Positions 12,173 through 31,510 of a DNA stretch of 56,319 nt are shown in pieces. Position numbers and translations under genes: made by a program. This DNA comes from a virus. The notes beneath the pieces are model-generated. The model searched no databases. It was not told where the DNA came from and worked only from the letters and a program-made list of their open reading frames with translations. Numbering within the stretch: the stretch's first letter is position 1; each line of letters opens with the position of its first letter. The DNA lies in the IMG/VR virus record IMGVR_UViG_3300020478_000009, positions 1 through 56,319 of that record; one strand, 5' to 3'.

Positions 12173-12814
12173 ATGACAGCAAAATTATTTTCAGCCTTAA
12201 CAGCTTTTATGGCAATGTTTAATACTTGTACTGGACAAATTGCCGAAACGCCGGGAGTCGCTCACATAAATGAGCCTGTAGTGACCCACACAGCGATCAC
12301 AGACTCTTCTTCAGTAGAACGCACTCCTATCCCTCTTTATCACCAGCAGGCTTTCAGAACAGCTATAGAACGCCCTCAGGAGCCAATAGATTTAAACGGC
12401 TACGGTAGATGGTTAAAAGCACAGGGGAAACTGGAAGAATGTCCTATAAATAAGCCCTGTGAAATTGATCCTGAGCTTTATATAGAGCAATTACCAACTC
12501 TGGAAGAACTGGTTAACTGGTTTTTCCCTAAATGGTCTGATCGTCAACTGTTTCTAAGGATAGCTTTTTGCGAGTCGAGTGCTAAACCTACAGATAAGTA
12601 TTCAACAGCGGTTAATAAATCTAGTGGAGCTTCAGGCTGGTTTCAACACTTACCAAAATTTTGGTTAGAACGAACCAAAAAAAGCGAATATTTTGATGGT
12701 TTTCATATTCTTGATCCGATTGCGAACGTAGGTATGGCGGCTTGGATTTATTTTAATTTGCCGGGCGGTAGTAGTCATTGGTATCCCAGTCGTTCATGTT
12801 GGGAGAAGCAATGA
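12173..12814 (+). CDS. Lysozyme/transglycosylase-like exported protein
   Basis: A 213-residue protein with a short hydrophobic N-terminus (signal-like, about 1-20) and a C-terminal lysozyme-like domain. F-C-E134-S-S-A-K-P carries the probable catalytic Glu; S-G-A-S-G-W-F-Q-H and D-P-I-A-N-V-G-M-A-A-W-I-Y-F complete the SLT/Rpf-like fold. It would cut peptidoglycan glycan strands. It lies in the early DNA-metabolism operon, 38 kb from the lysis genes, so it may remodel the wall earlier in infection or act as a virion factor. Confidence 0.7.
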   Translation: MTAKLFSALTAFMAMFNTCTGQIAETPGVAHINEPVVTHTAITDSSSVERTPIPLYHQQAFRTAIERPQEPIDLNGYGRWLKAQGKLEECPINKPCEIDPELYIEQLPTLEELVNWFFPKWSDRQLFLRIAFCESSAKPTDKYSTAVNKSSGASGWFQHLPKFWLERTKKSEYFDGFHILDPIANVGMAAWIYFNLPGGSSHWYPSRSCWEKQ

Positions 12815-13791
12815 GTCCTGCATGGGGTTGTGTACCACCTGTGGATAAACCATATAAACATGGCTCTTTTTGCACAGGCTACGGCGGTTTAGATATGGCT
12901 ATTGAAGAGTTTTTTGATGCTGAAACTGTTTGGTATTCTGAAATAGAAGCATCTTGTAATACGTTGTTAGAGCAACATGGATATAGAAATAATTTAGGTG
13001 ATTTAACAAAAATAGACTGGAACGAGGTAGAACAAGTAGATATTATGTCTGCTGGTTTCCCTTGCCAGCCGTTTAGTATCGCAGGCTCAAGGAAGGGTTT
13101 TAATGATGAAAGAGCAATCTTTGAATGGATCGCGGACGGTATTAGCATTTTACGACCAAGAATTGTCGTGTTGGAGAATGTCGGAGGCCTCCTTACTCTT
13201 GGAGGAACCAGCGTTGTTGGATTACTTACCCGCATCGGGTATGACTGTAGATGGAGCGTTGTTTCCGCTTCCGAAGCCGGAGCGCCACACCAACGAAGAA
13301 GATGGTTCTGCATTGCAGAGGCGAAAAACTTTATTGCCTACACCGATGGCACACGACCACAAAGACACAGGATTAGCTCCATCACAGGAGAACAGGGGGA
13401 CACGGACACTTCCAGTGGTACTACATTTGCTACCAACACCGCTAGCACTCGGCTCGAACGACAGCGGTTTAGCTCCAACACAACTTCGAGGAAACTTTCA
13501 ATCAACTTCGGCAGTGCTACGGAAAATAGCGAACAACCAGACTTCGTGTGGGGAAAATACGAAGGAGCCATTAGAAGATGGGAACACATTATTGGGAGAT
13601 TGGCTCCATACCCAGTAGCTGAGAGAGGAGTTAATCCAGCGTTTACAGAATGGATGATGGGTTTACCTGAAAATCATGTGTGTAATCGAGGTTTATCAAG
13701 AGCAAAAGAATTAAGGATGCTTGGCAACGGTGTGGTTCCTCAGCAGGCGCTTTTGGCTTTAGAGATGTTGTATGACTGGAGATGCGACTAA
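12811..13791 (+). CDS. dcm: DNA (cytosine-5) methyltransferase, copy 1
   Basis: A 326-residue C5-cytosine methyltransferase. SAM motif F-C-T-G-Y-G-G-L-D-M, catalytic G-F-P-C85-Q-P-F-S, V-L-E-N-V and Q-R-R-R-W-F are all present, and the C-terminal motif L-G-N-G-V-V-P-Q-Q completes the fold. The target-recognition stretch (about 175-245) is Ser/Thr-rich and shares its DNA with a second reading frame. The start overlaps the upstream stop (ATGA). It would modify phage DNA against host restriction. A diverged paralogue follows directly at 13791. Confidence 0.9.
   Translation: MSPAWGCVPPVDKPYKHGSFCTGYGGLDMAIEEFFDAETVWYSEIEASCNTLLEQHGYRNNLGDLTKIDWNEVEQVDIMSAGFPCQPFSIAGSRKGFNDERAIFEWIADGISILRPRIVVLENVGGLLTLGGTSVVGLLTRIGYDCRWSVVSASEAGAPHQRRRWFCIAEAKNFIAYTDGTRPQRHRISSITGEQGDTDTSSGTTFATNTASTRLERQRFSSNTTSRKLSINFGSATENSEQPDFVWGKYEGAIRRWEHIIGRLAPYPVAERGVNPAFTEWMMGLPENHVCNRGLSRAKELRMLGNGVVPQQALLALEMLYDWRCD
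13106..13618 (+). CDS. Overprinted gene inside dcm copy 1
   Basis: A 170-residue open frame in the +1 frame of dcm. It starts M-K-E-Q and follows AAGGAAGGG (13089-13097). Landmarks are S-C-W-R-M-S, G-M-T-V-D-G-A-L and two L-L-P-T-P motifs. The same order appears at the same offset inside the second dcm (14056-14484), and I recall similar S-W-R-T-S-Q ... L-P-T-P sequences associated with phage Dcm genes. Function unknown; possibly a specificity or helper protein. It could also be a relic of an ancestral in-frame recognition domain. Confidence 0.5.
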   Translation: MKEQSLNGSRTVLAFYDQELSCWRMSEASLLLEEPALLDYLPASGMTVDGALFPLPKPERHTNEEDGSALQRRKTLLPTPMAHDHKDTGLAPSQENRGTRTLPVVLHLLPTPLALGSNDSGLAPTQLRGNFQSTSAVLRKIANNQTSCGENTKEPLEDGNTLLGDWLHTQ

Positions 13792-14630
13792 TGAATGAAT
13801 CACTAACTCACGGCTCTTTTTGTACAGGCTATGGAGGGCTTGACATGGCTGTAGAGGAATTTTTTGGAGCTTCAACTGTCTGGTATTCTGAAATAGACTC
13901 AGCGTGTAATAAGCTTTTAGCTAAATATGGTTATGAAACAAATTTAGGTGATTTAACAAAAATAGACTGGGATAAGGTAGAGCCTGTCGATATCATGTCG
14001 GCTGGTTTTCCTTGCCAACCTTTTAGTTTTGCAGGAGAAAGAAAAGGAGAAGAAGATGAAAGAGCAATTTTCCAGTGGATCGCTGACGGCATTAGCGTTC
14101 TTCGACCAAGAATCGTCGTGTTGGAAAATGTCGCAGGAATCCTTAATCTCGGAGGACCATCAGTCCTTGGAGCTATTGCCAGCTTGGGGTATGACGCAAG
14201 ATGGGGCATTGTACGGGCTTCCGATGTCGGAGCACCACATCAGCGACAAAGATGGTTTTGCGTTGCTAACGACACCACAAGCGTCAGAGAACATCCGGGG
14301 CAGACCGAAAAGATTCGAGGAGAGAGTACACAAGGCGAAAAAAGAGTACCGGTACGATTTAGCAGACCAGATAGTCTACATAGCGATTTTGAATGGGGGC
14401 GATATGGGCCTGCTATTAAACGATGGGAAGGCGTTTTGGGAAGGTCGGCTCCAGAACCCTGCACAAACGTCAATGACAGATTGATAAATAGTTCTTTTTT
14501 GGAATGGATGATGGGTTTACCTGAAAATCATGTATGCAATCAGGGGTTAAGCACATCTCAAGAGTTGCACGCCTTAGGTAATGGCGTAGTTCCCCAGCAG
14601 GCTTATCATGCTTTGGAGTTGTTGGTATGA
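13791..14630 (+). CDS. dcm: DNA (cytosine-5) methyltransferase, copy 2
   Basis: A 279-residue paralogue of the preceding gene, sharing the N-terminal F-C-T-G-Y-G-G-L-D-M, catalytic G-F-P-C75-Q-P-F-S, V-L-E-N-V, H-Q-R-Q-R-W-F and L-G-N-G-V-V-P-Q-Q. It is 47 residues shorter, nearly all lost from the target-recognition region, so the two enzymes probably methylate different sites. I start at the ATG of TAATG (13791), 9 bases after TGGAG. A second frame (14056-14484) lies inside it. Confidence 0.9.
   Translation: MNESLTHGSFCTGYGGLDMAVEEFFGASTVWYSEIDSACNKLLAKYGYETNLGDLTKIDWDKVEPVDIMSAGFPCQPFSFAGERKGEEDERAIFQWIADGISVLRPRIVVLENVAGILNLGGPSVLGAIASLGYDARWGIVRASDVGAPHQRQRWFCVANDTTSVREHPGQTEKIRGESTQGEKRVPVRFSRPDSLHSDFEWGRYGPAIKRWEGVLGRSAPEPCTNVNDRLINSSFLEWMMGLPENHVCNQGLSTSQELHALGNGVVPQQAYHALELLV
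14056..14484 (+). CDS. Overprinted gene inside dcm copy 2
   Basis: A 142-residue open frame, +1 relative to dcm copy 2. Its ATG is 5 bases after a perfect AAAAGGAGA (14042-14050), hard to explain as chance inside a methyltransferase gene. It shares with the copy-1 frame M-K-E-Q, L-A-F-x-D-Q-E, S-C-W-K-M-S, L-P-A-x-G-M-T-x-D-G-A-L and L-L-T-T-P-Q-A. The C-terminal part is charged and helical. Function unknown. Confidence 0.55.
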   Translation: MKEQFSSGSLTALAFFDQESSCWKMSQESLISEDHQSLELLPAWGMTQDGALYGLPMSEHHISDKDGFALLTTPQASENIRGRPKRFEERVHKAKKEYRYDLADQIVYIAILNGGDMGLLLNDGKAFWEGRLQNPAQTSMTD

Positions 14631-14878
14631 CACATCATCAAATGAAATGTGCTACTGGATGTATAAACCAGTCACCTTTATGTCGTTGGTGTATTCCTAC
14701 TGGTTGGCGGTTCCCGGTTAGAAAATGCAATCACGACTGGGAAGATGCTATTGCAGTAACAAAAGAAACAGAGATTTTAAAAGAATTAAAAAGTAAAAAA
14801 CATAAAAGCAAAGAATCTTTACGTTATGAGTTTTGGCTTCGATGCGTAAAGTGTGAAAGTTTCAAGGCAATTATATGA
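14627..14878 (+). CDS. Small cysteine-rich protein
   Basis: An 83-residue protein with six or more cysteines (C-A-T-G-C, C-R-W-C, K-C-N-H and C-V-K-C), consistent with two zinc sites. It overlaps the dcm stop and the next start by 4 bases each, so it is translated as part of the chain. Function unknown. Confidence 0.6.
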   Translation: MTHHQMKCATGCINQSPLCRWCIPTGWRFPVRKCNHDWEDAIAVTKETEILKELKSKKHKSKESLRYEFWLRCVKCESFKAII

Positions 14879-15762
14879 AGTATTACATTCAGCTATGGTC
14901 AATGGTGATTATAGGGCTTTTAATCTGTGGGATTATGTGGCTTGCTTGTGAACCACATACAGCTAAAGCTCATCACGACAGAATATACACACCCTGTGAC
15001 ACAACTACTGGGCATGTTCACATGAGCTACGAAGAAATGGTTGCTCGTATCTCAATAATGGAACAAGACGGAACTATTCCACCGGGCATGATCTCACGTT
15101 ATGTAGAAGCTAGAGATGGCGGTAAAGGTAATGACGATCCTCGTTTTGTTTGGGCTAGAAATCTGGAAGAAGGACAAATACTTTCTTTAGGAAACTGGGC
15201 AAGCGGGCATCATCCTGAGCTTGAACAACTTGTGCTTAATTCAGGGCTTGTAGCTGAATGGCAGTTGGATGCTAATAAAACAGTAAGACGATTTAATGAT
15301 CCTTACTGGATGCAAGCAAATCCGCTGTCACCAGCATTTACGGTCTGGGAGTCTCTTTGCATGGCTAATCTTGGTTATTCGATTCCAATGTTTGAAGTAG
15401 ACGATAATGGAGAATGGGTGTCTAATGTGCCTACCGTCACTACAACCACACCACCACCAACCACAACTATTATTGTTGAAGAAATTACTTTTGATGGCGG
15501 TACAAGTATTAACATTACTGACCCTGATGTAGTCCCTGTAATTCTTGCGCCAGTGTATGAAGAACCTTCTTTTAGTTGGGTTGAAAGATGGTTTCAAGCT
15601 GAGTGGGATGATTTTCCTTTTGAAGACACGATTAAGCTTTTAGAGGAAAGATACCCACCTAACACTCCTAAGAAGTATCATTTTAGATTATCCACTGCTG
15701 TAGAGTTTTTAAGAGAAGGTGGCAAACTTAAAGGATTAGATAATGTTTGGAATGGTGAATGA
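14875..15762 (+). CDS. Exported or membrane-anchored hypothetical protein
   Basis: A 295-residue protein with an N-terminal hydrophobic segment (about 8-26, ending L-A-C-E), a possible lipoprotein cleavage site at W-L-A-C. The body is rich in His, Asp and Trp. A T-T-T-T-P-P-P-T-T-T linker at about 184-195 separates it from a second helical region. It looks like a cell-surface or envelope protein; superinfection exclusion is one possibility but nothing proves it. Confidence 0.6.
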   Translation: MKYYIQLWSMVIIGLLICGIMWLACEPHTAKAHHDRIYTPCDTTTGHVHMSYEEMVARISIMEQDGTIPPGMISRYVEARDGGKGNDDPRFVWARNLEEGQILSLGNWASGHHPELEQLVLNSGLVAEWQLDANKTVRRFNDPYWMQANPLSPAFTVWESLCMANLGYSIPMFEVDDNGEWVSNVPTVTTTTPPPTTTIIVEEITFDGGTSINITDPDVVPVILAPVYEEPSFSWVERWFQAEWDDFPFEDTIKLLEERYPPNTPKKYHFRLSTAVEFLREGGKLKGLDNVWNGE

Positions 15763-30270: not shown

Positions 30271-30277
30271 TGTGTTT

Positions 30278-31510
30278 ATGCCTTATTCAATTACCAGTAA
30301 CCACAAAGATTGCTCAACGTTTGCAGTTGTTAAAGACGATGATGGTAAGTTGATGGGGTGTCATGAAACACGTGAAGCGGCTAAAAGACAGATAGCCGCA
30401 TTGTACGCATCTGAAGGAGCGAGCATGGAAAAAGCAACCAAGACTGATGATGGTAACGAATATCCTGCTAAAGCTTATGCGTATGTTCCTGATGCTGAGA
30501 AACCTTCAACATGGAAGTTACGTCTTTGGCAAACCCCTGAGATGGGAGTAACACGTAGGCAAGTTGGTTTAGCGATAGCCGCTTTAGGTAAAGGATATAG
30601 AGGAAACAGAGTGCGAATACCTTCTGGTGATCTTCCGGCTGTTAAAAATCGAGTGTTGAATGCGTGGTTGGATGTTCACCCTGAGATGAATCGTAGTGAT
30701 GCTCCCAGAGTTCTTTTAGCTAGTCGCATGACTGTAGCTACTCCTGCTGATAAGCGTCTTTACGACAAAGGGCATAACGACTGGCAGAGCGATTCAATGA
30801 CTTTGTTGCTTATGGCTTATCGTGAAATGCTGAATCATCCTAATTGTGAAGAGTTGCTTGAACCTCTTATGGAACTCATTCACATGAAGCAAGACATCAT
30901 GTTAGAAGCAATGGAAATTGAACTGGATGAAGAAGAAGACTATGAATATGCTCTTGAGCAACCCACGTTGGAAAGAATTAAAAGAGCGTCATTAAGACAG
31001 TTGACCAAATGGATTAACGGCATGGATAAGATGGGCGATTCTCGCGATGTCGCTGTGTTAAGAGCTTACGTTGAAGCAGAGATTAAGAGTCGAATAAACA
31101 AAGCTGGTTTCGTTGTAGAAAAAGCTGAAGCTAAACGTTACACACTAGGTCCGGTGTACGTGCCAAACGTTGAAGATGCTCATGGAGAGTTCACAGATGA
31201 TGACACTTTACAGGAAGCACTTTGGGGATGGATGCAAAAAGATGATCGTTCCATTTACTTGCAACATTCTGAAACTAAAGCAGGAGAGTTTGTTGAACTA
31301 TTAACATGGCCTTTCGCAATGAAAGCAGAGATGAGTTTGCCTGATCAAGAAGCTCAAGAGTTTGAGTTTCCCGCAAACACACCTTTCATGGGTGTTATAT
31401 GGGAACCTTGGGCATGGGAGCTTGTACAGCAAGGAGAGCTTCGTGGTTACTCAATCGGAGGAACGGCTCGCAGGGTTGAAGCGGATCTAGGTGAACTGGT
31501 TTCTGCGTGA
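30278..31510 (+). CDS. XkdF-like phage protease
   Basis: A 410-residue protein. The C-terminal third (about 283-400) matches XkdF-type putative phage serine proteases: L-G-P-V-Y-V-P-N-V-E-D-A-H-G-E-F, V-E-L-L-T-W-P-F and L-R-G-Y-S-I-G-G-T. The N-terminus (S-N-H-K-D-C-S-T-F-A-V-V-K) and a middle part with R-L-W-Q-T-P-E resemble extensions that appear in many phage head operons. It would process head proteins during maturation. The catalytic residues are not certain from sequence. Precedes scaffold and capsid genes. Confidence 0.75.
   Translation: MPYSITSNHKDCSTFAVVKDDDGKLMGCHETREAAKRQIAALYASEGASMEKATKTDDGNEYPAKAYAYVPDAEKPSTWKLRLWQTPEMGVTRRQVGLAIAALGKGYRGNRVRIPSGDLPAVKNRVLNAWLDVHPEMNRSDAPRVLLASRMTVATPADKRLYDKGHNDWQSDSMTLLLMAYREMLNHPNCEELLEPLMELIHMKQDIMLEAMEIELDEEEDYEYALEQPTLERIKRASLRQLTKWINGMDKMGDSRDVAVLRAYVEAEIKSRINKAGFVVEKAEAKRYTLGPVYVPNVEDAHGEFTDDDTLQEALWGWMQKDDRSIYLQHSETKAGEFVELLTWPFAMKAEMSLPDQEAQEFEFPANTPFMGVIWEPWAWELVQQGELRGYSIGGTARRVEADLGELVSA

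Follow-up and report, generated by a model that had tools for sequence, protein, structure and literature searches.

The window, that is, the whole stretch of viral DNA that was analysed (56,319 nt), contains two tandem dcm genes, each of which encloses a second open reading frame (ORF) in the +1 register. The products of the dcm frame are denoted here as alpha and those of the +1 frame as beta. The upstream neighbours of the pair encode an Erf-like annealing protein, an O-like replication initiator and a helicase loader. The features of the locus are the following:

12811..13791, + strand: alpha 1, C5-cytosine methyltransferase catalytic chain with motifs I-VIII, IX and X (ORF; PF00145, E 1.2e-37; phrog_363)
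13089..13108, + strand: SD-like AAGGAAGGG and beta 1 start codon (sequence)
13106..13618, + strand: beta 1, nested +1-frame protein of 170 aa (ORF; phrog_1008; shuffles, p<0.001)
13334..13429, + strand: first LPTP module of beta 1, cluster M4, beginning LLPTPMAHDHKDTG (module clustering)
13430..13615, + strand: second LPTP module and tail of beta 1, with no clustered relative (module clustering)
13782..14630, + strand: alpha 2, second catalytic chain with motifs I-VIII, IX and X (ORF; PF00145, E 4.1e-34; M.HhaI match)
14042..14058, + strand: SD-like AAAAGGAGA and beta 2 start codon (sequence)
14056..14484, + strand: beta 2, nested +1-frame protein of 142 aa (ORF; phrog_1008; shuffles, p<0.001)
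14266..14382, + strand: LPTP-type module of beta 2, cluster M8, LTTPQASENIRGRPKRF...RYDLADQIVYI (module clustering)

The alpha 1 ORF opens at a TTG (12778), and the ATG at 12811 forms an ATGA overlap with the stop codon upstream; an alternative ATG of alpha 2, at 13791, overlaps the alpha 1 stop. The motifs that characterize C5-cytosine methyltransferases are found in alpha in the proper order, namely I, IV (PCQ), VI (ENV), VIII (QRxR) and X, and motif IX, which reads EWMMGLP in the window copies, also lies in alpha, which extends to motif X. Alpha 2 could be aligned with M.HhaI over motifs I-VIII (18-174, E about 3e-16) and, weakly, over IX-X, and the stretch between VIII and IX was left unaligned. 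Directly downstream of the methyltransferases, an ORF at 14875-15762 includes a Thr/Pro-rich low-complexity stretch (TTTTPPPTTTII) at 15400-15530. Elsewhere in the window, a 412-aa ORF (30272-31510) has a C-terminal part that matches PHROGs named RNA ligase, DNA methyltransferase and head maturation protease, mixed names that probably denote one shared domain.

An initial, sequence-only reading of this DNA had proposed that each dcm gene hides an overprinted gene in the same register and at the same offset, and this proved correct: in both copies the beta ATG lies exactly 68 nt 5' of the ENV codons of motif VI. Both beta ORFs stop short of motif IX. An alternative ATG at 13103 would extend beta 1 to 171 aa, and the beta 2 ORF opens at 14029, corresponding to 151 aa. 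In PHROG profile searches, phrog_1008 was matched at its positions 67-170 by beta 1 (E 5.7e-9) and 52-157 by beta 2 (E 2.3e-11). The same reading had argued for dual coding from motifs common to the two hidden proteins, and from ribosome-binding-site-like DNA before their start codons. The motifs are indeed present, but they are shadows of Dcm motifs, MKEQ being the +1 reading of DERAI, SCWxMS that of VVLENV, and GMTxDGA, within LPAxGMTxDGAL, that of GYDxRWG; their sharing is therefore expected, because Dcm itself is conserved in those codons. Likewise, both AAGGAAGGG (13089) and AAAAGGAGA (14042) exist, but their strength is not clearly beyond what Dcm coding yields: the SD-like purines derive from Lys-Gly codons of the Dcm frame, and the mean SD match (4.50 observed versus 4.19 in synonymous shuffles) represents a marginal enrichment (Wilcoxon p 0.015, combined p 0.90). 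Since both lines of evidence largely follow from the Dcm frame, we relied on tests in which the Dcm protein is held fixed.

A first test of this kind concerned the openness of the +1 frame. When the window genes (45% GC) were shuffled synonymously, keeping the Dcm protein and codon usage (n=1000), the observed open lengths of 170 and 142 codons in copies 1 and 2 were reached by 0 of 1000 shuffles in each case (p<0.001), the expected means being 19 and 16 codons. Openness with p<=0.05 was found in 24 of 40 relatives (combined Fisher p 5e-37, a nominal value as the relatives are not independent), and the same test disclosed no excess openness in their +2 frame. The sequence-only reading would have been undermined by relatives with stops in the +1 frame and an intact dcm; none of the 141 two-frame relatives has a +1 frame shorter than 80 codons, and the GC content of 65 of them is below 0.55. 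A natural control is provided by locus L012, where a monomeric-type dcm (1174-2178) adjoins a two-frame gene and its +1 frame is closed (31 codons). The start codon gave a second result. The beta 1 ATG draws on the GAT codon of an alpha Asp-Glu-Arg sequence, and the ATG requires that this Asp be encoded by GAT, which occurs in 38 of 42 relatives, against an expectation of 15.1 (z 7.65); among the four relatives lacking GAT, two have an ATG 3 nt upstream. Conservation of the start ATG at a synonymous site points to independent initiation of beta.

Selection in the two frames was then compared. The ratio of divergence at codon position 3 to that at position 1 was 2.9-3.2 outside the overlap, 1.8 in the core and 0.83 between motifs VIII and IX, and codon-position counts were repeated on unbiased nucleotide alignments. 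In the VIII-IX stretch, the differences at positions 1, 2 and 3 amounted to 12, 2 and 3 for the pair L232/L233 and to 50, 18 and 25 for L026/L031, and a third position changing less than the first is what constraint on the +1 frame would produce. Simple pN/pS counts, pooled over 13 close pairs that share sequences and thus descriptive, were 0.26 before the overlap, 0.38 in the core, 0.96 in VIII-IX and 0.22 after the overlap for alpha, and 1.30, 0.74, 0.53 and 1.08, respectively, for the +1 frame, whose value in VIII-IX falls to 0.10-0.31 in several pairs. The codon-substitution check that had been suggested in relatives thus favoured a constrained beta in the pooled pairs and in copy 2, which, compared with its nearest relative in VIII-IX, gave 0.28 for beta and 0.70 for alpha, but not in copy 1, for which the values (1.32 and 1.74, from fewer than 55 codons) did not favour beta; we put this down to the comparison of non-homologous modules. 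The comparison of one paralogue with the other in VIII-IX was discarded as uninformative, as their modules differ. In alpha, VIII-IX, the target-recognition position of C5 enzymes, is neutral (0.96), that is, no in-frame target-recognition domain (TRD) is conserved there, which counts against a self-sufficient monomer and not against a chain of a C5 enzyme.

The 141 two-frame relatives were sorted by motif pattern into three types. In the F type (63 loci), to which the window belongs, alpha contains motifs I-VIII, IX and X and beta is nested. In the S type (56 loci), alpha ends after motif VIII, and motifs IX and X are found in the +1 ORF only. In the E type (22 loci; for instance, L105 and L107), motif IX is in beta and motif X in alpha. 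Further viral loci with an open +1 frame lie outside these patterns, L246, L258 and L269 resembling the E type by eye. The S-type and E-type beta must be translated to obtain a complete enzyme, because the enzyme needs the motifs they carry and, in fact, some phage records annotate the S-type second chain (gp90/91 of Zaka, gp32/33 of Vash). The nested F-type beta is homologous to them over the core; the profile evidence for this is in part shadow, whereas the sharing of modules is not. In Streptomyces phage phiBT1 (L097, 1227-2274), gene 9.1 is annotated as 'DNA methylase may be inactive', and an unannotated +1 ORF (1345-2274) carries the GMT/LPTP region and motifs IX-X; this ORF is the half that seemed to be missing, and the enzyme is thus probably complete. 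In a prophage of E. coli PCP07014 (L106, 1500-2261), a stop codon lies inside alpha, which is annotated as a pseudogene, and a break in the +1 frame lies near it, so that both chains are broken together.

Past its core, beta is made of one to nine segments of about 30 residues, each opening with an LPTP-like motif. A total of 539 such modules, segmented by pattern, were collected from 189 loci, and 430 of them fall into 65 clusters (obtained by label propagation, with approximate limits), 46 of which recur at two or more ordinal positions, while the left-hand neighbour varies for 36. M8 (GRPxRF...DLxDQ), found in beta 2, is common to L188, L190, L191, L193, L022 and L025; the latter two viral contigs likewise contain two tandem two-frame copies with different modules (M8-M17 and M37-M38). 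The same modules are also found in the alpha frame (L042, L049, L081, L099 and L102). L045 and L081 share a homologous 98-nt block, 83% identical, whose product RATDGTKGxPxQRGSSGDLMLPSAVM is read from the +1 frame of the former and from the alpha frame of the latter: the same peptide in different frames implies that selection holds the peptide and not the frame. The modules are interchangeable, and each of them might confer a specificity of its own, as a unit of a multispecific C5-methyltransferase would. Beta is, then, under protein-coding selection, with a conserved start and with modules that are shared and shuffled, and the proposal of dual coding stands, on the grounds of openness, start codon, pN/pS, codon positions and the frame-swapped module instead of the shared motifs and ribosome-binding sites that had been adduced for it.

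These observations can probably be integrated in the model of a two-chain C5-methyltransferase, composed of a catalytic alpha and a nested beta that carries target recognition. In this model, alpha (frame 0) would provide motifs I-VIII, for AdoMet binding and catalysis, as well as IX and X, and a weakly constrained linker would take the place of the TRD of other C5 enzymes. Beta would initiate at its own ATG within alpha, in the +1 frame, and would consist of a conserved N-terminal core, read across alpha motifs V-VIII, followed by at least one LPTP module, these modules acting as exchangeable target-recognition units. Association of both chains would yield the active enzyme, with beta selecting the target sequence and alpha carrying out base flipping and methylation of the cytosine, and the two tandem copies, with different modules, would probably protect the phage DNA at two different sites. 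Reading of the DNA target is most likely the task of beta within the enzyme, as its modules sit at the TRD position, vary and shuffle like TRDs, and replace a neutral alpha segment. We infer that beta is translated in this phage, forms a complex with alpha, recognises the target and plays a role against host restriction. The earlier suggestion that the +1 product alters methylation specificity is plausible, an obligate second subunit bearing the target-recognition part being the better reading. Several points weigh against the two-chain reading: the low confidence of the beta models, their lack of any match to a known TRD, the lack of a Pfam or NCBIfam model covering beta, the pN/pS values of copy 1, and the published placement of the predicted TRD of M.EcoHK31I in its large subunit. 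Moreover, the window alpha keeps motif IX, unlike M.EcoHK31I or M.AquI, and might therefore be active alone. On a broader scale, we give about even chances to the existence of a large and mostly unannotated family of phage C5-methyltransferases with their sequence-reading units in an overlapping frame, in which these units and motifs IX and X would move between frames by frame-changing indels, the peptide being preserved, as the two chains assemble whichever of them carries a piece; the LPTP modules would represent a combinatorial specificity set.

The competing explanation that survives best, albeit an unlikely one, is that beta is real and translated but serves to regulate, chaperone or stabilise alpha, or to modify its activity, and is not a target-recognition chain, as coding selection shows a protein and not its role. 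AlphaFold models built for beta 2 and for an S-type beta were of low confidence (mean pLDDT 66.8 and 60.6) and presented no significant PDB fold match, no known TRD and no recognisable DNA-binding fold. The S-type model yielded matches with E>1 only, mostly to DNMT3/DRM methyltransferases, a profile search of solved structures with the S-type beta returned nothing meaningful, and no Pfam or NCBIfam model covers beta. In addition, the window alpha holds every catalytic motif, IX and X included. However, the same chain belongs to the structure of the enzyme in the S-type and E-type relatives, where it bears motif IX alone or both IX and X, and recognition accounts better for the shuffled modules and for the neutrality of the alpha linker at the position of target recognition.

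Much less credible is the notion that alpha is active as a monomer, the +1 frame being a by-product or a fading relic, kept open by composition and shadow conservation. The shadow nature of the motifs first quoted fits it, and GC-rich monomeric dcm genes also display long +1 frames, matched by shuffles, and give weak matches to the beta profile for the same shadow cause. Yet this notion is already contradicted by the shuffles at 45% GC and the conservation of the start codon, and also by pN/pS, the codon-position patterns and the frame-swapped module; moreover, the +1 frame is closed in most low-GC dcm-like genes of cellular genomes (open in only 4 of 49 entries). We attach equally little probability to programmed ribosomal frameshifting fusing both frames into one alpha-beta polypeptide: the overlapping frames are ordered as a monomeric enzyme would need and S-type ORFs resemble gene halves, but beta starts before motif VI, so that frameshifting at its start, or earlier, would drop VI-VIII, and the ATG kept at a synonymous site suggests independent initiation. 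Finally, an out-of-frame homing endonuclease such as the hidden HNH element of ShiLan, which likewise lies out of frame within a phage methylase gene (PMC11855218), was rejected as very improbable, as that element is inserted between conserved residues, whereas beta is read across motifs V-VIII in all relatives of its type, with no insertion and no match to HNH or other endonucleases in Pfam, PHROG or NCBIfam.

If the two-chain reading is true, many phage 'Dcm' annotations describe one chain where two are encoded, and the annotated gene alone would look inactive; the nested arrangement is routinely missed by gene annotation. It would also constitute a clear and testable case of long same-strand overlapping genes with selection in both frames, and offer a set of modules from which methylation specificities, and hence phage escape from restriction, might be read.

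Two-chain C5 enzymes and S-type phage pairs are already known. In the papers searched, no survey of C5 methyltransferases in overlapping frames turned up, and none of these papers described the F layout, how broad the family is, or modules that hop between frames. In M.EcoHK31I the small chain is encoded in another frame within the gene of the large chain, and the window likewise has a second chain inside the alpha gene. This enzyme (YGGCCR) is made of two polypeptides, the large one with motifs I-VIII and X and the small one with IX, and its predicted TRD was placed in the large subunit (PMC3404938). The E-type relatives share its motif layout exactly; the window differs in that alpha holds IX and beta only the N-terminal core and the LPTP modules. 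M.AquI (CYCGRG) is a split enzyme, with motifs I-VIII in one polypeptide and IX-X in the other (PMC3404938), a layout matched by the S-type relatives and different from that of the window, where alpha reaches motif X and beta is fully nested. Similarly, phrog_1008 ('DNA methyltransferase'), which joins the beta region (52-170) to motifs IX-X (222-318), describes the S-type second chain, and the window splits these two regions between frames. ShiLan is alike in its out-of-frame ORF within a phage methylase, but this is a mobile, endonuclease-encoding insertion, and beta is neither. Multispecific phage C5-methyltransferases of the SPR and phi3T type carry, between motifs VIII and IX, short units for target recognition that stand in tandem and can be exchanged, as is well established (PMC12707154 cites Trautner et al. 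1996). The beta modules resemble them in arrangement, as tandem and exchangeable units; in those enzymes, however, the units are in the frame of the catalytic chain, whereas here most are in a second, overlapping frame.
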